Below, piece after piece: positions 7,921 to 42,834 of a DNA stretch of 64,000 bases. Numbering within the stretch: the first letter of the stretch is position 1; every line of letters starts with the position of its first letter. The notes under the pieces were generated by a model that searched no databases, was not told the DNA's origin, and saw only the letters and a list, made by a program, of their open reading frames with translations. The position numbers and the translations under genes are program-made. Source of the stretch: Herbidospora cretacea (lineage in GTDB: Bacteria; Actinomycetota; Actinomycetes; Streptosporangiales; Streptosporangiaceae); assembly GCF_001570605.1 (NCBI RefSeq), contig NZ_BBXG01000004.1, positions 1 to 64,000 on the forward strand. The letters run 5' to 3'.

Positions 7921-9534
7921 TCAGAGCTCCTCGGCGACCGAGAGCAGATGGGCGACGCCCGCCCGCCGGTCGGTCAGGTGGAGGCGCACGGTCGGGCGGC
8001 CCCGCGACTGGAGCGCCCCGAGGTCGCCCAGCGCCTGCGCGAGCTGGAGCTCGGCCAGGCCGTAGGGCCTGCCGGGGACCTCCACATCGACATTATTGAC
8101 GCCGGTGATCTGCAGGAACACCCCTACCTGCGGACCGCCCTTGTGGTACTGCCCGGTCGAGTGGAGGAACCGGGGGCCCCACCCGAAGGTGACGGCGTGG
8201 TCGGTGCGGTAGTCGAGCAGGTTGCGCAGCGTCGCGACGTCGGCCCGCGCCCACGCCTCGGTCGTCTGCTCGAAGTCGGCGCCGCCGAGCACGGCGGCGT
8301 CGAAGGCCGCCTCCCGGTCGAGGTAGGCCATGATCGCGAGGTAGCCGTTGTCAGGGATCTCCCGCAGCACCCAGGTCAGCACGTCGGCGAGATTGTCACA
8401 GTTCTCACCGATGTCGCCGTAGACCTCGACCGGCCCGTCGACCAGCGCCGGGTAGGCCACATGCGGCTCGGCCGCCAGGATCTTGGCGGTGTTCTCCTTC
8501 GACTCGGCCACGTTGGGCTGGTTGAAGGGGTCGATCTCCAGCGCGCGGCCGGCGATCGCGGTGGCGTACTCCCAGAGCAGGAACTGCGCGCCCAGCGGAC
8601 CGTCGACGTGGACGTCGCCCTCCGGGCCGATGTCCACCGCGAACTGGTCGTGGCCCTCGGCCGACTCGGCGCCGACGACGGGCAGGATGCCCTTGCCCGA
8701 CTTGCCGGTCGACTCGGCGATGAGCTGCTCGATCCAGTCGGGCAGCCCGGTGATGTCGGACAGCGCGTCGCGCAGGATCAGCTTGTCACGGCCGGCCAGG
8801 GCCTGGGCGCCCAGAAGCGCGCCCAGGTCGAGACCGGGATTGCCCTCGTCGAGGGCCAGCGACGGAGCGAGCTCGGCGGCGTCGTCGAGCAGCTTCACGA
8901 CGTCGGCGCCGGCCAGCGCGCTCGGCACCAGGCCGAACGCGCTGAGCGCGCTGTAACGCCCGCCGACGTTGGGGTCGGCCAGGAAGACCTGGTAACCCAG
9001 CTCCGCGGCGGTCTTCTCCAGAGGTGAACCCGGGTCGGTCACGACGACGATCCGGTCGGCCGGGTCGATCCCGGCGTCGCGGAAGGCCTTCTCGTAGATC
9101 CGGCGGTGGCTGTCGGTCTCGACGGTGCCGCCGCTCTTGGACGCGACCACCACGACCGTGTTCTCCAGCCGGTCGCCCAGGGCGCGCAGCACCTGGCCGG
9201 GGTCGGTGGTGTCGAGCACGGTCAGCGGCACGTCCTCGGTCGCGCAGATGACCTCGGGCGCCAGCGACGAGCCGCCCATTCCGGCCAGCACGACGTGGTC
9301 GAGCCCCTCGGCCCGCACCTTCTCCACCAGCTTGGTCAGCTCGGGAAGCAGCTCCCGGCTGGTGGTGGGCAGGGTCAGCCAGCCCAGGCGGATGGCCGCC
9401 TCGGTCTGCGCCTCCGGCCCCCAGAGGGTCGAGTCGCCCGCCGCGAGAGCGGCCGGCACTCCCTCTGCGACCAGCTTGTCCTTGACGGCCGCCGCGGCCT
9501 CAGCCGCGTGACCCAGGGTCACCTCTACCGTCAT
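7921..9534 (-). CDS. pgi: Glucose-6-phosphate isomerase
   Basis: This 537-residue enzyme interconverts glucose-6-phosphate and fructose-6-phosphate and so links glycolysis to the pentose phosphate pathway. SIS-fold features are clear: [12 protein letters not shown] near residue 84, [12 protein letters not shown] (phosphosugar binding) near 130 and [17 protein letters not shown] near 190. It is the actinobacterial divergent form that sits inside the pentose phosphate operon. The start lies only 3 bases after the tal stop. In mycobacteria pgi is elsewhere, so its presence in this operon is a lineage trait. Confidence 0.93.
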
Positions 9535-9537
9535 GAG

Positions 9538-10644
9538 TTATCGGGCCTTCCCCAGCTCGGTGGTGACGGTCTCCAGCAGTTCTTTCCACGAGACGGCGAA
9601 CTTGTCGACGCCCTCCTCCTCCAGCACCTTCACGACGTCGTCGTAGTCGATGCCGACGTTCTTCAGGGCGGCCATGGCGTTCCAGGCGGCCTCGTAGAAC
9701 GGGCGGATCGTGTCGCCCGAGATGCGCCCGTGGTCGGCCACGGCGTTCAGCGTCTTCTCCGGCATCGTGTTGACGGTGCCGGCGGTGACGAGCTCGTCGA
9801 CGTAGAGGGTGTCGGGGTAGTCGGGGCTCTTGGTGCCCGTGGAGGCCCACAGCGGGCGCTGGGGACGCGCCCCGGCCGCGCGCAGCTCCTGCCAGCGCGG
9901 GGTGTTGACGATCTCCTCGAAGGCGGCGTAGGCCAGGCGGGCGTTGGCCACGGCGGCCTTGCCCTTGAGCTCCAGCGCCTCGGGAGTGCCGATCTTGTCG
10001 AGCCGGGCGTCGATCTCGCTGTCGACGCGGCTGACGAAGAACGAGGCGACCGACTCGATCTGGGACAGGTCGAGGCCCTTGGCCTTGGCCTGCTCCAGGC
10101 CGTCGAGCCAGGCGTCCATGACCGCGCGGTAGCGCTCCAGGGAGAAGATCAGCGTGACGTTGACGCTGATGCCCTCGGCGATGGCCGCGGTGATCGCGGG
10201 CAGGCCCTCCAGGGTCGCCGGGATCTTGATGAACAGGTTGGGCCGGTCGATGAGCCACCACAGGGCGCGGGCCTCGGCGATGGTCGCCTCGGTCTCGCGG
10301 GCCAGGCGGGGGTCGACCTCGATGGAGACCCGGCCGTCGACGCCGGAGGTGGCGTCGTAGACCGGGCGCAGCACGTCGGCGGCCCAGCGGATGTCGAACG
10401 TGGTGATCGCGCGGACGGCCTCGTCGACCGAGACCTTGCGGACCGCCAGGTCGTGGAGCTGGGTGTCGTAGGCGTCGCCCTTGCTCAGCGCCGAGGCGAA
10501 GATCGTGGGGTTGGAGGTGACCCCGGTGACGTTCTTGTCGCGGATCAGGTCGCCCAGGTTGCCCGTGCGCAGGCGCTCGCGGCTGATGTCGTCGAGCCAG
10601 ATCGACACGCCGAATCCGGTCAGCTTGGAGAGGTTCTCACTCAT
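9538..10644 (-). CDS. tal: Transaldolase
   Basis: This 368-residue enzyme moves a dihydroxyacetone unit between sedoheptulose-7-phosphate and glyceraldehyde-3-phosphate. It belongs to the longer, actinobacterial and cyanobacterial type of transaldolase. Motifs include GVTSNPTIF near residue 40, the Schiff-base lysine region FIKIPAT near 145 and the phosphate-binding segment [13 protein letters not shown] near 268. The ATG at 10644 lies 2 bases after the tkt stop, with TGACTATGAG around the junction, so the two are co-translated. Confidence 0.96.
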
Positions 10645-33898: not shown

Positions 33899-34846
33899 TC
33901 ACCCGGCGAGGAGATCGGAGAGGGTCAAGGCAGCGAGACCGGGGTCGTCGGCGGGGGGAATCCGGTCGAATCCGCTCACATCCGGAACGACGCCGAGGGT
34001 GAGGACGTCGTCGACCTGGGCCATGACGGCTCTGGCGACGCGCTTCCTGTCGACGGGGGTGAGGTCGGGCGAATTCCAGGCCAGGGAGACGGCCGCGGTG
34101 CGGAGATCCCGGAACACCTGACCGTCCCCGTACTGGAAGAAGGCCTCGGCGGAGCGCCCGATGAGCTCGGTGAGCTCGGGGAACAGCCACGAGCTTCGCT
34201 CCGTGCGGCAGTGGAGGCGGATCACCAGGAAGTCCAGCCCCGGGGCGGTCGTCAACCGGTCGCCGGCGAACTCGACCGGGGCGTCGGGGGCGTTGACCAC
34301 CACGATGCGGCCCGCTCTCAGGGAGCCGTCGGCCATGGTCCAGTTCACGCCGAGCACCGGCTGCTCGCCCAGGTTCCCCAGGATCTGGTCGAGCCCGCGC
34401 GACACCCGCCCCGCGATGTCGGCCGCCGTCCTGAGCGGCACGAGCAGATCACCCAGCGACGAGACGACCTGGATGGCCGCGTCGAGCGGACCGTCGGCCG
34501 GAACCCGGTACAGACCAGCTTGAACGGTTACGGATCCTCCGTTGTACGGGATCTCCGGTGTGATCAGGCGGTTCAGCGTGATGCCCGGGGCCTTCCAGGT
34601 GTCCTGGGGCTGGACCGTGGTGAACTCCAGCGCCGGCGCGCCGGGCCGGGACAGGCAGACGCCGCCGTGGAGGGCCGGGTACTGGTCCTTGGCCCAGTGG
34701 CGACGCTGCCCGAGGAGACCCTCGGCGATCGAGACCTGCAGGTAGCCCTCGTAGGGGGACAGGGTGAGACCGCCGGGGTCGGGCACGAAGACGGCGGTGA
34801 TCCGCTCCGCCTGGGCGTTGAACCAGTTCTCAATGCGGCGCCACAT
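33899..34846 (-). CDS. Protein of unknown function, fourth gene of the CHAT/STAND conflict operon
   Basis: I do not recognise this 315-residue protein. It starts MWRRIENWFNAQAER, an amphipathic helix, then a mostly beta-rich half (residues 20-130), a hydrophobic/amphipathic stretch at about 130-165 (AAIQVVSSLGDLLVPLRTAADIAG) and an alpha/beta C-terminal half. No signal peptide, clear transmembrane helix or known catalytic motif was seen. Its start lies inside the last codons of the STAND gene (17-base overlap), so it is translated with it. As the only member without a recognisable enzyme or sensor domain, it could be the effector, a protease substrate, or an adaptor; all three are inference. 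Confidence 0.8.
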   Translation of the reverse strand: MWRRIENWFNAQAERITAVFVPDPGGLTLSPYEGYLQVSIAEGLLGQRRHWAKDQYPALHGGVCLSRPGAPALEFTTVQPQDTWKAPGITLNRLITPEIPYNGGSVTVQAGLYRVPADGPLDAAIQVVSSLGDLLVPLRTAADIAGRVSRGLDQILGNLGEQPVLGVNWTMADGSLRAGRIVVVNAPDAPVEFAGDRLTTAPGLDFLVIRLHCRTERSSWLFPELTELIGRSAEAFFQYGDGQVFRDLRTAAVSLAWNSPDLTPVDRKRVARAVMAQVDDVLTLGVVPDVSGFDRIPPADDPGLAALTLSDLLAG

Positions 34847-37800
34847 ATTCGTCCTTCTTGGTCCTGAGAAAAAGGATCACGTCGGCGGCGGCGGCCCGGT
34901 CGCCGCCCGCCTCGAAGATCAGGCCACGGATGGTCCTCTGAAGCCGGAGCAGGTCCTTCGGGCGGGTCCGGCATCCCGCGATCACGCGCCGGACGGCGTC
35001 GGAGACCGCGTCGGGCAGGAGCGGCAGGACGAGCACGGCCTCGGCCTTCTGGGCCGCGAAGTCCCGGGCGAGCCCGGTGAACCTCCCACGCTCGGCCTGG
35101 CTCAGCTCCCGTGGCCCGCTGTCGACGACCTCCGGCTGGAGCACGACCAGAGACCGGTACCGTGGCGAGAACCGATGCGGCGCGGTGAGCGCGGTCTCCC
35201 CGGTGAGCCGCAACCTGACCCCGGCGCTGGTCTGCACAGCCGTGCCCTGAAGATGCACAAGGGGACTGTGGGGATCCTCTTCCGCCGGCACGGTCTCCGG
35301 CCGGCCGCCGGGCAGCAGGCCGGGGACGTCCCGGAACGCCATGGACCCGTGGTCCCACATCTCCAGCTCCCACGGTGCCGAGTCGAGGTCGGCGGACACG
35401 CGCAGCCGCAGCACCCCGCCCAGCGGAAGGCGCCAGCCGGGCCCCCATCGGACCAACAGGTGCGGCCGGTACTCCGTGACGCGGTGATATCGGGCGTCGG
35501 AGCTCACGGAGACGGTCACGGGGCACACCCGGGCCACGAGCCGCTCCACCCGGCCGACGCGGGCGAACGTGTTCCGCTCTTCCGCGGGCCGGATGAGCGG
35601 TGCGCCGAAGCGCAGCTCCACGGGGTCCCCGTCGCCGAGGATCACCTCTTCGCCGGGGTGGAAGCGCAGCATTCGGTGGCGGTACCGCCAGGCAGATGGC
35701 AGTCGCTCGACGTCCTGGTCCGCCACGTGTGTCTCGGCCGGCGGGGGGCCGGTGGGGGACAGGCGGCGCGCCGCCAGGAGGGCGATGAGCTCCGACTGGC
35801 AGGCCTCCACGGGACTGCCCAGCTCACGGAAGAGCCCGGCCGCCTGTGCCAGCCGGGGAATCGCCTCTTCGGGGTCCCGCATGGCCAGGATCTCGGCGTC
35901 CGCGACCAGGGCCCTGGCCCGGTTGCCGCGCCCCGGGAGCACCGGACGCGGATGGCCCGGGGGGGCGATGACGAGGTCGGGATCGTGGGCCGCGGCGTAC
36001 TCCTCGACGGCTCGACCGGCGATGGACCAGGGGATGCCGGGCTCCGCGGCGAGCCGCGGCGCGGGCGGCCAGCCGCCGGCCAGGGAATGACGGTCCTGCG
36101 CCTGCCACCAGCCGTACCAGCTCCCCGCCTGGGCCGGTGAGGACGGCTGCTCACCCGTGCACAGGGCCAGGGTGATCCACGCCTCCGCCTGGACCAAGGG
36201 GGTGCCCGACCGCGCGAGAGCGGTCGTCTCGGGGAACAGGTCGAGGGAGCGCATGCGCCTGGCCAGCCGGATGAGGGCGATCTGGCACCTCTCCACCGTG
36301 TCCGGGTCGTCTCCGGTGGCGACCGCCTCCTCGATCCGGTCGCGCAGCAGGGCCGCGGCCCTTTCCGGCTCTCCCCGGATGCGCCACGCCTCGGCCACCG
36401 CCTCGACCAGTGAAGGCGTCACGTGGTGGAGCCACGTGGCCGGGCGGCGGGAGGCGGAGTAGGCGTCGCGGCGGGTGAGCAGGTCGAGGACCTCGGGTTC
36501 GGGCGGGCGCTCGCCGTTGCCGGCGGCGACCCGCCAGGCGTGGAGGCGCTCGGTGTCGATGTCGGTGATCGCTTCGGGTGGAAGGTCGCTCCACCGCCGA
36601 ACCTCGGGTTCTTCGCTCAGCACGTCGCGGAGCAGCAGCAGCCGCGAGGCCAGTCCGGGCGGCGGACGCCAGTCGGTCCATTTGCCGATGCCGTCGCCGG
36701 AGTCGTCGGGGTAGGCGCGCACCGCCTCCTCGGAGAGGCCGCGCGCGAGCTCCAGGTCGCCCCTCTGCCAGGCCAGAAGCGCGCGCTGACCGAGGGTCGC
36801 GGCCAGGAGGCGCCGGTCCGGGGTCCAGGTCCGCGCGCCGCCGTCGCCGGTGCCGGAGAACCAGGTGCCGTCCGGAGCGACCACGCCGGCGGCCGTGGGC
36901 GCGGCCATGACCGATCCCACCCGCTCGCCGTCCCAGCGGACGATGCGCGCGCCCGCGGTGGCGGTGAGGCGGTGGGGCCCGGGGTCGGCGACTCCATAGG
37001 GGACGACCGGGCGGTCGGCCACCCCGATCTGGGTGCCGTCGGCCAGGAAGAGGCGCAGCAGGCCGTCCCGCCCGGCGGTGAGAATGCACGTGCCGTCCGG
37101 GGACGCGTGCACTCGCACGGCGTGTTCCGGGCCGACGCGCAGGGCCGACAGGATGGTGCGGAGGGTGCCGTCCATGTTCCAGACGCGGACCCGGCCGTCC
37201 TTGGCGACGGAGGCGAGCCAGGTGTTCCCGGGGGCGACGCAGAGGTCGGCGATCGGGCTGCGGTTGCCGGGAAGGGCACGCCGGTCGGAACCGCCCCAGG
37301 TGTGGCGCGACCCGTCGAGGTTCCACGCGGACACCTCCCCGTTCTGGTGACCGGCCGCGACCCACGGGGCGTCGGGCGCGGCGGCCAGGCAGGTGATGCG
37401 GCTGGGGGTGGTCACGGTGGGTGAGACGCCGTCGAGGGCCAGCGTCCGGTCCATGGCGACGACGGGCGAGTCGCCGGCCGGGCTGAGGGCGACGGCGTCG
37501 ATGCCGCGCGGGTACGCTCCGCGCCACTGCGCGGAGAGGCCGTCGACGACATGCCAGGAGGTCAGCAGGCGCGAGCCGTGCGCCGCGGCGAGCCGGTCTC
37601 CCCGGGGTGTCATCGCGAAGTGCGTGATCGGCCCCAGCCCTTCGGCGAACGTGCCCTCTCCGCTCGCCGCCGCGACGTCCTCGTCGCGGAGCTCCTCCCA
37701 GGCGCCCCACGTCAGGTAGCCGTCCAGGGCGGCGACGATCGAGCCCGACGGCGCCTCACCCCGGCCCGCGATCTCGGGTAACCGTTCGCCGAGGCCGACC

Positions 37801-39863
37801 TGATGACCGCACGCCGCCAATCCCAGGAACGCCCGGTCGGCCAGGATCCTGGCCGCACGCGGGTCCGGATGGCGGTGCGCGTGGGCCTCCACTTGGGACC
37901 AGAGGCCGGCCACGCCGCCGCCTCCGGTGTGGATGCGGGCGGCGGCCTGGGTGGCGAAGACCGCGCCCAGGATGGTTCCGGGCGCCTCCGCCGCCACCCG
38001 GGCGGCCACCTGCCCGGCCCACGCCCACGCGTTCTCGCGGGCCACCCGCTCTTCGAGGAGCTGCCACGACGCCCCCGGATCGGCGCTCAGCCGCACGGCC
38101 GCGATCACCGTCGCGGCGGAGACCTCGGTCAGGGACGGGGCGGCGTCGATCACGTCGGCCGCGTCCTGGCCGAGCCGCCGGGTGTTGACCGGGAAACGGG
38201 CCGAGGCGACGCGGCGGACGCGGTCGCGCAGATGGTCCTCGATCTCCAGGATCTCCGGGCGGCCGGTCTCGTCCAGGCCCGCCACCCGCATCCACTCCTG
38301 GGCGGCCAGCCCGAGGAAGACCGCCTCCGGGTCGAGGTTCAGGCGGGTCAGCGCGGGCCGGACCAGCGGCAGGTCGAACCGGCCCAGCTCGGCGGCCACT
38401 GCGAGCGCCCGGTTCACCCCCTGGTCGCCCAGGCGGCCGATGAGGCGGCGTTCCACGTAGGGGTCTCCGGGGGCGGCCAGCAGCTCGGCCGGGTCCAGAG
38501 TGGGATCGCTCAGCGCCCATTCCGCGTAAGCGGACAGGTCGAAGGGGTTCACCCGGTCCCCGGCCGACGCCCGCGCCAGGACCGCCGGGACCAGGGGCTC
38601 GGGCACCTCGCGGAAGGCCAGGTACTCTTCGGCCTCCTCCGGCGTGAAGCCGCTGATCAGGTGGACGGCCACGAAGTCCTTCCGCGACAGTTCCGGGCCC
38701 GCGTAGGGCGTGCCGTCGGGCGGGGGGACGAGCCGGCGGCGTCCGGCGAGCAGCGCCCGCACCGACGGGGCCCGGCGGTGCACCTGTTCGAGGAGGTTCC
38801 AGGTCGTCTCGATGGCCGGGGCCGGGGAGCCGGGCGGGTGGAGTTTGGCCAGTTCCTCGCAGGTGTCCAGGACGAGGAGCACATACGGCGCGCCCAGCGA
38901 TTCGACGAAGGACGCGAACGCGGCGGCCATGCCCTCGATGAGCGGCCGCTCCCGCCCGGTCAGGCGGACGCCGCGCGAGGACTCCTCGTGCAGTTCGCCG
39001 GCCGCGTCGAGGAACCGCCGGTAGCGGCCCTCCACCTCGCGCGTGACCCCGAAGCCCAGCAGCTCCCCGGCCAGCGCCAGCAGCACCTCGCCGGGCCGGG
39101 CCTCCGGATAGCGAGGGTCCAGGTGGTCGAAGTCGACCCGGGCCACCGGGATCTCCGGCAGGCCCCGTTCGGCGGCGAACCGCCCTCCGGCCAGGTAGCG
39201 GACCAGCATGGTCTTCCCGGCCCCGCCCGCACCGAGCAGGTGCAGGGCCCATCGGGGCGCGCCGGGGGACAGCAGGGTCTCCACGGCCGACTCGAACTCG
39301 GCGCGGTTGCGGTAGTGGCGCAGGAACCGGGCGTCCTCGGCCTCCCTCATGGCGCGGTCGACCCGCCGGCGGGCCCGGCGGGCGCTGCCTTCGAGCGGTC
39401 CTCCGAGCACCTCGCCGAGCAGCTGCGCCGTGGCCACGAGCCGGGAGGCCGCGCCGACGTTCGCCGCGGCGGCCACGGCGTTCAGCAAGCTCAGGCCCGA
39501 GGCGTCGGCCCGGTGCACGGTGACCACGGCGCGCCATTCGTCGAGGCCGGGCACCTGGCTCGTCCAGCCGAGCATGCGTTCCAGCTCGCGCTCCACCAGG
39601 GTTCCGTGTTCGCGGCGGAGGAACTCCCCGACCTCCCGCCGGCGGCTGGACCGCAGCCAGGAGGACCGCTCGCCGCTCAGCAGGGTCCGGGACTCCGTCA
39701 GGCCCGCGTCCTCCAGGGCCTGGATCATGTCCTCGGGCAGCAGGGCCAGTCCCGGCGTCCACTCGGGCAGCAGGGCGATCCTGGCCAGGAGCTCGGGCGG
39801 GAACCGCCTCAGCTCCTCCGCCGACCGCCGGGCGAGGGCGGCCTCGAGCTCCGCCGGGGTCAT
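34830..39863 (-). CDS. Large STAND-type P-loop ATPase with WD40-like repeats
   Basis: This 1677-residue protein has an alpha-helical N-terminal region (1-195), a P-loop NTPase module with Walker A GAGGAGKT (Lys217), Walker B VLLVLDTCEE (Asp333), a following arginine finger-like segment GRRR and winged-helix/helical sections, then about six WD40-like blades at residues 740-1000 (for example VAAGHQNGEVSAWNLDG, LASVAKDGRVRVWNMDG). A helical TPR-like stretch and a C-terminal beta-rich domain of about 330 residues with no known match follow. STAND ATPases oligomerise on sensing a signal; the WD40 part is a likely sensor or scaffold. The ATG overlaps the CHAT stop by 4 bases. It is the probable switch of the operon. 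Confidence 0.85.
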   Translation of the reverse strand: MTPAELEAALARRSAEELRRFPPELLARIALLPEWTPGLALLPEDMIQALEDAGLTESRTLLSGERSSWLRSSRRREVGEFLRREHGTLVERELERMLGWTSQVPGLDEWRAVVTVHRADASGLSLLNAVAAAANVGAASRLVATAQLLGEVLGGPLEGSARRARRRVDRAMREAEDARFLRHYRNRAEFESAVETLLSPGAPRWALHLLGAGGAGKTMLVRYLAGGRFAAERGLPEIPVARVDFDHLDPRYPEARPGEVLLALAGELLGFGVTREVEGRYRRFLDAAGELHEESSRGVRLTGRERPLIEGMAAAFASFVESLGAPYVLLVLDTCEELAKLHPPGSPAPAIETTWNLLEQVHRRAPSVRALLAGRRRLVPPPDGTPYAGPELSRKDFVAVHLISGFTPEEAEEYLAFREVPEPLVPAVLARASAGDRVNPFDLSAYAEWALSDPTLDPAELLAAPGDPYVERRLIGRLGDQGVNRALAVAAELGRFDLPLVRPALTRLNLDPEAVFLGLAAQEWMRVAGLDETGRPEILEIEDHLRDRVRRVASARFPVNTRRLGQDAADVIDAAPSLTEVSAATVIAAVRLSADPGASWQLLEERVARENAWAWAGQVAARVAAEAPGTILGAVFATQAAARIHTGGGGVAGLWSQVEAHAHRHPDPRAARILADRAFLGLAACGHQVGLGERLPEIAGRGEAPSGSIVAALDGYLTWGAWEELRDEDVAAASGEGTFAEGLGPITHFAMTPRGDRLAAAHGSRLLTSWHVVDGLSAQWRGAYPRGIDAVALSPAGDSPVVAMDRTLALDGVSPTVTTPSRITCLAAAPDAPWVAAGHQNGEVSAWNLDGSRHTWGGSDRRALPGNRSPIADLCVAPGNTWLASVAKDGRVRVWNMDGTLRTILSALRVGPEHAVRVHASPDGTCILTAGRDGLLRLFLADGTQIGVADRPVVPYGVADPGPHRLTATAGARIVRWDGERVGSVMAAPTAAGVVAPDGTWFSGTGDGGARTWTPDRRLLAATLGQRALLAWQRGDLELARGLSEEAVRAYPDDSGDGIGKWTDWRPPPGLASRLLLLRDVLSEEPEVRRWSDLPPEAITDIDTERLHAWRVAAGNGERPPEPEVLDLLTRRDAYSASRRPATWLHHVTPSLVEAVAEAWRIRGEPERAAALLRDRIEEAVATGDDPDTVERCQIALIRLARRMRSLDLFPETTALARSGTPLVQAEAWITLALCTGEQPSSPAQAGSWYGWWQAQDRHSLAGGWPPAPRLAAEPGIPWSIAGRAVEEYAAAHDPDLVIAPPGHPRPVLPGRGNRARALVADAEILAMRDPEEAIPRLAQAAGLFRELGSPVEACQSELIALLAARRLSPTGPPPAETHVADQDVERLPSAWRYRHRMLRFHPGEEVILGDGDPVELRFGAPLIRPAEERNTFARVGRVERLVARVCPVTVSVSSDARYHRVTEYRPHLLVRWGPGWRLPLGGVLRLRVSADLDSAPWELEMWDHGSMAFRDVPGLLPGGRPETVPAEEDPHSPLVHLQGTAVQTSAGVRLRLTGETALTAPHRFSPRYRSLVVLQPEVVDSGPRELSQAERGRFTGLARDFAAQKAEAVLVLPLLPDAVSDAVRRVIAGCRTRPKDLLRLQRTIRGLIFEAGGDRAAAADVILFLRTKKDEYVAPH

Positions 39864-41782
39864 GGTTCGTACCGGAGGCCGTGGAGGCGCGCGTAGGCGT
39901 GCCAGGCCTCGGAGTCGTTGTGGCTGTGGAAGACCTGGAGCGCGGCCAGGGCGTGGACCATGCGGTAGAGGTCGGTCTTGATCAGCCCGGGGCGGCCCTT
40001 CATCAGGCGGCGGAAGCTCTCCTTGAGCTCGTCGGGGTCGCGGCCGGGCGGGGCGTAGTAGGTGCGGCGATAGGCCTGGTCGGGGTGCCACTCCTGGAGC
40101 AGCACCCACTGGAAGCCCAGGGCGGCCTCCTCGTCGGAGAAGGGCTCCAGTTCGAGGAACGCGCACCACGGCATCCCGGACTTCTCCTCCCGGAAGTTGC
40201 GCAACGGGTAGCAGGCGCTCAGCTCGGCCGTGACGATCACCGGCGCCGGACGCCCGGGGGTGCCCAGACCGGCCGGGGTCAGCAGGTCGAGCAGGCCCTT
40301 GTCCCGTTCGGTCCAGCCCAGCGCGTCGACCCACAGGTGCAGGGCCTCGGCCAGGACGGCCACCCGGGTGTGCTCGCCGAACGGCGGCCCGAGGGACTGG
40401 GCCGCGGCCGCCAGGTCCGCGAGGTCGGCGGCGAGCAGGGAGTCGATCTGGCCGGGGCTCAGGACCTCGCCGGCCGCCGCGAAGCGCTCGACCCCCGACT
40501 TGAGGGCCTGCCGGGCGCGGACGGGATCGGCCAGGTCGACCGGGTCGAGGCAGCGCATCTCGGTCACCGGCAGGCCCAGGCGCTCACCGGCCCTGATCGC
40601 GTGGATGAGGATCTCGGCCACCACCTGCCGCAGGCTGTGCGGGGCCGCGCGCTCGTTGTCGAAGGGCGCGAGCAGCAGGGGCACATGGCCCGACTGGAAC
40701 AGGCGCAGGCCGATCTCCCGGAGCAGGCGGGTGCCGCCGATGTTCTCGAAGGGGCCGCCGCTGGTGATGCCCAGCAGGGTGCGTTCGCTGCCGGGCGCCA
40801 GCACCTCGTCGAGGGCGTCGAAAATGGCGGTCCGGCCCACATAGGCGGGCGCTTCGAGGAGTTCGAGGCGTCCGGCCAGCCCGGAGATCCGCCGGACCTC
40901 GGCCAGGTCGACGGCCTGGAAGTCCTCCGGCAGGTCGTCGGTGACGTAGAGCGCCGGGAGGGCCCAGTCGGACCCGGCCGCCGACGCGGCCTGCCGGCCG
41001 TGGGCGACGGCCACGGCCACCGATTCGCCGTGGAGGAGGGCGTCGACGCAGCGGCGGGAGAACAGCCGGCACGCGTACTCGGTGATCTCGCCGCCCATCG
41101 CGACGACCACCGGGACGCCCGCGCGTAAGAGCGCCTCCACCGGTCCCGCCGTCACCGCGGAGTGGCAGATGCTCAGCACCACCGCGAGCGGCGGCCGGGC
41201 GCCCGAGGTCAGCGCCGGGGCGAGCCGGTCGGCGGGCACGAACTCGCCGCCCAGACCGATCCACAGCCCGCCGTCGGCGTCGAGGCGGCCGTGGGCGACC
41301 AGGTGGACCACGTCGGGGGAGAAGGAGGCGCACCGGTCGCTCAGCCGCCGGAGCGTAACGGCCTCCGCCACCCGGGTCTGGGCCAGGCCCTGGGCGTCGC
41401 AGTCGCGGAGCGTGCCGAGGAACATGGCCCCGGGCCTGATCACCGGGTCGGTCAGCTCGGCGCCGCTCGCGAACAGGACCTTCGGCACGTCGCGCACCGG
41501 TTCACGGAACCCCCGCACCCCCAGCCGCCGGGAGATCGCCAGCAGGGGGATGCCGTCGGCGCGCATCGCCTCCCAGCTGTGGCCTTGCAGCTCGGGTGGC
41601 AGCTCCAAGGTGAGTTCCAGGGCGCGGAAGCGGCGCAGCGCCCGCCAGGCCGGTCCGAGAAGGGCGTCGAAGAGGTCGCCTCGCAGGGACCCCAGAGGGT
41701 ACGGCCCCGCCAGCACGCTCCCCTCATGGAAGAGCGTCACAGAGCCGCCTTCCACGGTGACGATGACGCGCGCTGCCTTCAT
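39860..41782 (-). CDS. CHAT-domain (caspase-like) peptidase with degenerate NTPase-like C-terminal half
   Basis: This 640-residue protein has a beta-rich N-terminus, then a CHAT domain at about residues 90-285 with the catalytic dyad His164 (HLVAHGRLD) and Cys206 (LSICHSA), the order and context of the clan CD peptidases. From about residue 300 it continues like an AAA_16/STAND module: AYVGR, then GGPFENIGGTRLLREIG, where the expected GKT lysine is Gly350. ATP hydrolysis by this half is therefore unlikely. The start overlaps the metallopeptidase stop and its stop overlaps the STAND ATG, each by 4 bases. It should be a protease activated through the partner ATPase. Confidence 0.85.
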   Translation of the reverse strand: MKAARVIVTVEGGSVTLFHEGSVLAGPYPLGSLRGDLFDALLGPAWRALRRFRALELTLELPPELQGHSWEAMRADGIPLLAISRRLGVRGFREPVRDVPKVLFASGAELTDPVIRPGAMFLGTLRDCDAQGLAQTRVAEAVTLRRLSDRCASFSPDVVHLVAHGRLDADGGLWIGLGGEFVPADRLAPALTSGARPPLAVVLSICHSAVTAGPVEALLRAGVPVVVAMGGEITEYACRLFSRRCVDALLHGESVAVAVAHGRQAASAAGSDWALPALYVTDDLPEDFQAVDLAEVRRISGLAGRLELLEAPAYVGRTAIFDALDEVLAPGSERTLLGITSGGPFENIGGTRLLREIGLRLFQSGHVPLLLAPFDNERAAPHSLRQVVAEILIHAIRAGERLGLPVTEMRCLDPVDLADPVRARQALKSGVERFAAAGEVLSPGQIDSLLAADLADLAAAAQSLGPPFGEHTRVAVLAEALHLWVDALGWTERDKGLLDLLTPAGLGTPGRPAPVIVTAELSACYPLRNFREEKSGMPWCAFLELEPFSDEEAALGFQWVLLQEWHPDQAYRRTYYAPPGRDPDELKESFRRLMKGRPGLIKTDLYRMVHALAALQVFHSHNDSEAWHAYARLHGLRYEP

Positions 41783-42834
41783 ACCCGTACCAACCGCCCG
41801 GCGAGATCGGCTGCCAGCCGCTTCACATCCGGCCGGGGAACGGCCCCCAGCGTCCCCTCGGGCCCGCACTTCGGCAAGGCTTTGAGCAGGTTCTCGTGGA
41901 CGACCGGCGTCAGCTCCCCTGCGAACGCCGCCGCCAGCAGCCGCCGGGCGGCGGGAAGGTCGCCGAGCTTGACCAGCAGGGGATCGGGCCGCCGCAGCGC
42001 CGAGGGCCAGCCGCCGACGTCGAACGAACCCGCGAGTCTGTCCAGCCCGAGCTCCTGGAGCGGATGGCCGCGCATGTGCGACAGCCGTACGGAAAGAGGG
42101 GGATAGCCACCGACGGCCTGCTCGGGACCGCCGAGCTCGGCCACCAGCCAGGACGCCCCCGGCCCGATCATCAGGACCGACCAGGCGTCGGCGAAGACCT
42201 CCCGGGCGAACCGCCGGTCGTCGCCCAGCAGGTCGCGGGTCGCCGCCTCCAGGTCCAGGTCGAGCTGCACATGGTGCCCCACCTCGTGGGCCACGAGGCC
42301 GAGCCACCACGACTCGAAGGCCGACCACGCCGGCAGGCAGATCGCCGGGATCGGCAACTCCTTCACATAGGAGGCCGCCTCCGCGTCGGCGGGGGCGCGG
42401 AGATCGACGGGGACCGACACCCGTGGCGTCGCGAAGGCGTCGAAGCGGTGCTCGACATAGGCGAGAGGCCCGGTGGGAGGGGTCCTGCCGAGAACGGAGA
42501 ACGGCTGGGCCCAGCAGGAGCGGACCACCTCGTCGGCCGCCGCCAGCACCGGCGCCCACCGGGAGGACAGGCGCTGGTCGTATTTGGCCGAGTACCACTC
42601 GAAGATCCGGCGGACCACCAACTGGCATCGGTCCGGCCGCGCGAAATCGTCGGTCGAGAGGTAGGCCGAGCGCACCGCGCGCAGCATCTCGCCGAGCACG
42701 GTGCTCAAAACCGGGAAATGTCCCGAGAATCGGTGGAACCGCGAATCGGCCCGCCGTGCCGCGATCCACTCGCCGATCTCGTCGGCGAGCGCGTCGGCCA
42801 TGGTCAGGGAGCGGTCCAGGCGTCGGCCACGCAC
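41779..42834 (-). CDS. HExxH zinc metallopeptidase-like protein, first gene of the conflict operon
   Basis: This 351-residue protein has a zinc motif HEVGHH (His183, Glu184, His187) followed by EVFAD with Glu212 as a probable third ligand and Asp216, a gluzincin-like arrangement (HExxH, then Glu 25 residues after the second His). There is no signal peptide, so a cytosolic protease is likely. The GTG at 42834 is chosen because a TATAGT -10 box lies 6 bases upstream, which implies a leaderless transcript; an ATG at 42801 is the alternative. It is the promoter-proximal gene of the four-gene operon and overlaps the CHAT gene by 4 bases. The wider family was not identified. Confidence 0.78.
   Translation of the reverse strand: MRGRRLDRSLTMADALADEIGEWIAARRADSRFHRFSGHFPVLSTVLGEMLRAVRSAYLSTDDFARPDRCQLVVRRIFEWYSAKYDQRLSSRWAPVLAAADEVVRSCWAQPFSVLGRTPPTGPLAYVEHRFDAFATPRVSVPVDLRAPADAEAASYVKELPIPAICLPAWSAFESWWLGLVAHEVGHHVQLDLDLEAATRDLLGDDRRFAREVFADAWSVLMIGPGASWLVAELGGPEQAVGGYPPLSVRLSHMRGHPLQELGLDRLAGSFDVGGWPSALRRPDPLLVKLGDLPAARRLLAAAFAGELTPVVHENLLKALPKCGPEGTLGAVPRPDVKRLAADLAGRLVRV

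Follow-up and report, generated by a model that had tools for sequence, protein, structure and literature searches.

Four minus-strand genes (A, B, C and D) in the window, a stretch of 64,000 nucleotides from the 8.28 Mb genome of the soil actinobacterium Herbidospora cretacea, form one conserved unit; their co-occurrence, order and overlaps support this. The cassette is read here, with a probability of roughly 0.55, as an NTP-gated proteolytic switch of the STAND-caspase class, probably serving immunity or programmed death, and is put forward from its sequences as a candidate undescribed defence or cell-death system.

Gene A (positions 41779–42834, minus strand; 351 aa, GTG start) encodes a candidate metallopeptidase of the HExxH (zincin) type with the HEVGH motif at residues 183–187 (42274–42288, minus strand). 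Gene B (39860–41782, minus strand; 640 aa) encodes a CHAT (caspase-like) domain followed by a C-terminal P-loop domain whose eroded motif, GGPFENIGGTRLLRE, occupies residues 343–357 (40712–40756, minus strand). Gene C (34830–39863, minus strand; 1677 aa) encodes a probable STAND-type ATPase with WD40 and TPR-like regions; its P-loop, GAGGAGKT, lies at residues 211–218 (39210–39233, minus strand) and the Pfam WD40 region at about residues 735–1000 (36864–37661, minus strand; limits approximate). Gene D (33899–34846, minus strand; 315 aa) is an orphan, predicted to be a beta-sandwich with inserted and C-terminal helices; the helical segment at residues 120–159 (34370–34489, minus strand) was taken from the predicted structure and has aligned counterparts in distant D-like proteins that are not part of the cassette. 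The first-pass annotation had described four overlapping minus-strand genes, and the coordinates bear this out: the overlaps are 4 (A/B), 4 (B/C) and 17 (C/D) bases. In four further loci (L026–L029) 4-base overlaps were found at 12/12 junctions, with the start codons as chosen by us, so tight packing is common to related loci. The individual gene assignments made there also stood. The motifs of a protease-like HExxH protein A and of a His-Cys CHAT protein B are present and are invariant in the aligned rows; C is indeed a 1677-residue P-loop protein, with K217 in place and WD40-like blades recognised by Pfam above its cut-off; and D, called unrecognised, reaches no family threshold in Pfam, PADLOC or NCBIfam.

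In a sample of 200 genomes of the order, D gave 8 and A gave 11 matches (E ≤ 0.001); strong D (E ≤ 1e-60) and strong A (E ≤ 1e-57) were found in the same 6 genomes, one of which, G098, holds a decayed copy. Matches of D in G159 (E 5e-4) and G012 (E 9e-4) and of A in G147 (E 9e-4) were left out of this strong count; the other five A matches comprise four of a divergent sister lineage and one marginal. A sample of 394 genomes of the class yielded 10 matches of D (limit 1e-4) and 17 of A (limit 1e-5); strong A and strong D again coincided, in 8 genomes, 7 of them in one genus and hence not independent. Left out here were D in G324 and G428 and nine weaker A (G029, G252, G324, G400, G429, G443, G455, G481 and G550). 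Named genomes were scanned with B, which gave 11 loci: 8 with all four genes, one (L045) broken by its contig ends, and two (L041, L042; 2/11) with B and C and no A or D match nearby. The hosts of the latter two are Nonomuraea that carry the full cassette elsewhere as well. Streptosporangiaceae, Lentzea and Frankia-type genomes thus have 13 loci with all four genes (the window, the 8 of the B scan, and G183, G050, G235 and G313, with L026 taken as identical to L038 and L027 to L046). C is split across two reading frames in G313; G366 and G478, where C and D share a contig and A is found on a different one, are outside the count of 13. The first-pass annotation had proposed a tabulation of co-occurrence and had named rare co-occurrence as grounds for dismissal; the homologues do co-occur (6/200, 8/394, 13 loci), and that objection falls.

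The order A-B-C-D on one strand was found in seven Streptosporangiaceae loci. In each of the five Frankia-type loci D faces A-B-C convergently; the Lentzea locus pairs D with A, and this pair is divergent from B and C, which are on the opposite strand. D therefore stays linked even where a common transcript is impossible. The B profile, run against 60 relatives, gave 6 matches at E ≤ 1e-10, and the match was strong only in the host's own genome; around a weaker match in G063 no A, C or D match was found at E ≤ 1e-5. In the B tree the nearest named relative of the window protein is that of Streptosporangium saharense (Streptosporangiaceae), and the two B-C-only loci group as a single clade placed among those with four genes, which under midpoint rooting, with the root not established, would correspond to a single loss of A and D. 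An apparent fusion of B and C in two genomes was rejected as a gene-calling artefact, the long N-termini being out-of-frame extensions over B.

The cassette is situated between a GH95 gene and a regulator adjoining the suf genes, an interval of 9.3 kb in the window. Congeners have shorter intervals here: G100 has 0.5 kb; G092 (1.0 kb) and G029 (1.5 kb) carry an alpha/beta hydrolase, which is short in G092; G111 (2.6 kb) has a dehydrogenase and an HTH regulator; G048 (2.9 kb) has a 795-aa NACHT protein (L094, 917–3301) in place of the cassette; and G098 (1.9 kb) has a decayed remnant with pieces of A, B and D (L030, ~8036–9588), whose DNA matches to the window are 81–87% identical. The site is variable in the genus and bears a remnant in one congener; the cassette is accessory here, accordingly, and can decay.

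Among 47 neighbour proteins of nine homologous loci, PADLOC (E ≤ 1e-10) gave mad3 (3) and ThsC (2), as raw counts with no background rate, and single members of mad2, IetA and OLD/GajA/AriA/PtuA/AbiLi-type models. Enrichment in a defence island was set aside on these few matches with no background rate. An IetA-like ATPase gene (L043, 16487–18028; PADLOC E 2e-26) was noted beside the Lentzea cassette. The same machine could instead be a switch that signals by proteolysis in the development or stress responses of filamentous actinobacteria, a reading that we consider unlikely. It would agree with the 47 neighbours, among which a defence-island context was not seen (no background rate), and with the range of B in the named-genome scan, confined to Streptosporangium, Nonomuraea, Microbispora, Lentzea and Frankia, all of which are filamentous; CHAT proteins of the HetF type function in the division and differentiation of cyanobacterial cells. 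A developmental gene would not be expected to be as rare as this cassette (6/200), to be decayed in one congener and to be missing at the site in five others. The reading as a defence or death switch is retained below.

B matched Pfam CHAT (PF12770) with E 8e-11 and 42.3 bits against a cut-off of 24; H164 and C206 are invariant in 12/12 rows, the two B-C-only loci included. The B profile matched PDB entry 8tl0, 'CHAT domain-containing protein' (E 3.8e-4), in an alignment that spans both the His and the Cys. No PADLOC match to B was found at E ≤ 1, nor to A or D. The C-terminal part of B aligned to an AAA_16/P-loop domain of the sister lineage (hhalign probability 98.4, E 6.6e-15) and has GGT at the P-loop site where the sister lineage has GKS (GKSSL); the P-loop lysine is missing in 12/12 B rows of the first lineage, that of the cassette, and present in 4/4 sister rows. 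By these alignments B carries an eroded P-loop domain behind CHAT.

In C the residues K217, T218, D333 and E336, among them the P-loop Lys and the Walker B Asp, are invariant in 5/5 rows. Pfam AAA_16 was matched with E 0.0012 and 19.8 bits against a cut-off of 32.6, and was seen at E ≤ 1 in 5/5 rows; Pfam WD40 was matched with E 4e-14 and 52.8 bits against a cut-off of 27. The PADLOC match at E ≤ 1, HEAT-ARM_XIII, covers the WD40 region only. In the window, and by elimination and alignment in L026 too, WD40 comes after the ATPase; it precedes the ATPase in L027, and no WD40 match at E ≤ 0.1 was found in C of L028 and L029. WD40 as a fixed part of C was ruled out accordingly, as it moves or is unmatched in homologues. 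Transmembrane segments of C by hydropathy number two in L026, two in L028, one in L029 and none in the window and L027. One pair of close Nonomuraea-type loci, L028 (G183) and L039 (Nonomuraea dietziae), was used for all rates, with dN/dS of 0.19 (A), 0.16 (B), 0.16 (D) and 0.50 (C). Along C of this pair pN/pS was 0.21–0.35 at residues 1–600, 0.46–0.76 with several indels in the middle, and 0.79–1.12 at residues 1354–1757. The ATPase part of C, and A, B and D, appear constrained in this single pair; the high ratio of the tail may fit a diversifying sensor, and relaxed constraint or misalignment may also have raised it.

The sister lineage was found in G029, G098, G100 and G111 of the window's genus and in G172 of another genus of the family. 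Its proteins are an A-like protein (25–28% identity to A), a C-like ATPase (by BLAST) and a CHAT protein; G443, of another family, combines CHAT with a protein that Pfam places as NACHT/TPR-type and with an A-like protein. CHAT was found in G029, G098, G100, G172 and G443; G111 has an open frame of similar place and size, but no CHAT was found in it. At E ≤ 1e-3 the ATPases of the sister lineage were missed by the C profile, though BLAST finds them. In L033 (17804–18229) and L034 (17495–17911) the gene immediately upstream of the CHAT/P-loop one encodes a small protein that looks hydrophobic by eye. The A proteins of both lineages can be aligned along most of their sequence (hhalign 99.8, E 2e-27), and no D match was found in the sister-lineage loci. 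From this comparison CHAT, the ATPase and A would be the older core and D an addition of the first lineage. With no D match and the ATPase lysine intact, the sister lineage is the natural comparison for the cassette.

A is an HEVGHH protein, its HExxH starting at residue 183; H183, E184, G186, H187, E212, F214, A215 and D216 are invariant in 9/9 aligned rows, and E212 is probably the third metal-ligand Glu beside HExxH. The sole Pfam match was Zn_peptidase, sub-threshold (E 0.19) and located at HExxH; no NCBIfam cut-off was reached, hydropathy gave no transmembrane segment, and the A sequence profile gave one chance-level match (E 0.6) against PDB. Structure prediction of each protein had been proposed at the outset and was done with AF2 for A and D. 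The A model (pLDDT 75.5) had no PDB structure match at E ≤ 0.001, and no fold was assigned. A-like HExxH genes near a gene with a similar start by eye (M-x-TE-x-x-Y) and no CHAT match were noted in L084, L085 and L086; these are perhaps a second context of the A family. With no B, C or D match at E ≤ 1e-3, the A-like genes of L084–L087 were left out of the system.

D, modelled from 8 sequences (pLDDT 80.3, pTM 0.78), is predicted to be a beta-sandwich with helices inserted at 120–159 and C-terminal helices. Foldseek against PDB ranked PI3K chains highest (best E 5.6e-4, TM 0.25), with a PLC-delta chain at rank 19 (E 0.014) and Wnt3a complexes at ranks 26 and 39; the best viral structure match was an uncharacterised Hokovirus protein (E 6.7e-5, probability 1.00, TM 0.44). 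The part shared by the matching PI3K and PLC-delta chains is presumably the C2 domain, and D is possibly a C2-like sandwich; an identity of D from the PI3K matches was rejected, the TM-score being too low to claim it. The D sequence profile found nothing in PDB. No transmembrane segment was seen by hydropathy in 9/9 D, and the helical segment is rich in small and hydrophobic residues (6 sequences; L043 left out). No match to D, the one protein of the four searched there, was found in the plasmid collection.

These features of D bear on the idea that it is a membrane executor released by a protease, a C2-like sandwich whose helical pair binds or enters lipid. The predicted sandwich with its inserted helices, the small and hydrophobic composition of the helical segment, the PI3K and PLC-delta matches with the C2 link presumed above and the viral best match all point that way; the TM-scores are low (0.25 with PDB, 0.44 with the viral protein) and no D has a transmembrane segment, and we regard an executor of this kind as doubtful.

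Distant D-like proteins outside the cassette were found in G324 (hhalign 97.7) and G428 (94.8). In the latter (L082, 454–5481) the D-like protein adjoins a sub-threshold trypsin-like match (E 2.9e-4) and a DUF4407-kinase protein; the run is possibly another protease system that uses the D domain, and finding a D-like protein next to what may be an unrelated protease gives a hint that the domain partners with proteases. The G428 arrangement, and the existence of B-C loci that lack A and D, would suit a division of labour in which A matures B or shuts it off by proteolysis, and D serves as an adaptor or recruitment module, not an effector. Against this, A is kept in the sister lineage where no D matches, and the observations suit an effector role of D as well; this division is taken as a tentative alternative, on the unlikely side.

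For the STAND-caspase switch were counted the co-occurrence of A and D, the 13 loci, the linkage of D and the invariant residues, as well as the P-loop lysine of the sister lineage and its A homologue with no D match, the rate pattern of C and the variable site with its remnant and NACHT gene. Counted against it were the few defence-gene matches nearby, the lack of D in the plasmid collection, the B-C-only loci (2/11), AAA_16 below cut-off, the failure of the C profile to find the sister ATPases, and the tail ratio of C, which relaxed constraint or misalignment may explain. As to assembly, order of activation, substrates, outcome and biochemistry, we infer the following course for the preferred switch. 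C would stay inactive until a trigger reaches its variable WD40/TPR/C-terminal part. C would then assemble, and the eroded P-loop domain of B would probably join it as a partner that does not hydrolyse; the assembly would bring the CHAT domains of B together and so activate them. CHAT would cut a partner (D, A or both); A, the second and separately encoded protease, would amplify or redirect the cut; and D would be the cassette-specific output, as substrate, adaptor or membrane-acting executor. Faced with a mobile element, the host cell would most likely die or arrest.

The most far-reaching version, which we consider improbable, is a bacterial apoptosome-like machine in which a caspase-fused pseudo-ATPase would pair with an active STAND sensor and start a cysteine-then-zinc protease cascade; this would release D, as a new protein class, to act on lipid as executor, a gasdermin-like logic with unrelated parts. 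If the switch works as proposed, the cassette would be a compact two-protease STAND switch with an eroded-ATPase, caspase-like subunit, and a bacterial parallel to the logic of the apoptosome (WD40 sensor, STAND switch, caspase-like output). D is an unannotated protein family linked to the cassette in three actinobacterial families.

The cassette was compared with known systems from passages of the papers cited. Caspase plus AP-ATPase (TPR) operons are listed among NTP-dependent conflict systems (Kaur et al. 2020, 2021; PMC7159879, PMC8195603). In common with these the cassette has a predicted caspase-superfamily peptidase beside a probable STAND ATPase with repeat sensors; unlike them, as far as those passages describe them, it adds a separate HExxH protein and D, its CHAT protein has an eroded P-loop domain, and A-D are without EAD, bDLD, vWA, MoxR or VMAP match (Pfam E ≤ 1). 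The ternary MoxR-vWA systems differ in the same respect, no MoxR or vWA domain being found in A-D by Pfam. The two-gene EACC1-caspase system has an N-terminal caspase and another domain, sometimes STAND, at the C-terminus (PMC7159879, section 33), a layout shared by B with its N-terminal caspase-type domain and different C-terminal domain; here, in contrast to that section, the gene 5' of B encodes the HExxH protein A without a transmembrane segment, not EACC1 with one transmembrane helix, and further ATPase and D genes are present. EACC1 (PF19953) had no match in the host genome, and 14 control genomes were silent too.

Inactive STAND partners (iSTAND, iSTAND2, the eroded partner of an active STAND; PMC8195603) resemble B in that one of two paired proteins has an eroded NTP-binding motif; compared by published description only, they differ in that the eroded domain of B is fused to CHAT. 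Borvo and the type III-E craspase are CHAT proteases of phage defence (PMC10952713) and share this domain with B; B has no PADLOC match at E ≤ 1 (Borvo assumed to be in the library) and belongs to a four-gene STAND cassette, unlike either as presented in that source. In FxSxx-type peptide-processing systems of actinobacteria a zincin-like peptidase gene is coupled to a STAND ATPase (PMC7159879, section 24), as the candidate metallopeptidase gene A is here; unlike the systems of that section, A-D include no radical-SAM protein or FxSxx precursor, and A is below NCBIfam cut-offs.

No description of the four-gene set was found in open-licence PMC papers, among the matches listed (title, start of abstract, passages), and the main text of the DefensePredictor paper had no match to four terms for the cassette. 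The first-pass annotation had not noted the eroded P-loop domain of B, the sister lineage with no D match, the modular, fast-evolving part of C, the B-C pairs lacking A and D, or the variability of the insertion site. It had called the locus a candidate undescribed system; this holds insofar as no PADLOC model fits and the set was not found in that literature, and gives way insofar as caspase-plus-STAND operons are already described. The cassette is therefore a variation on a known architecture, of which D is the least known part.
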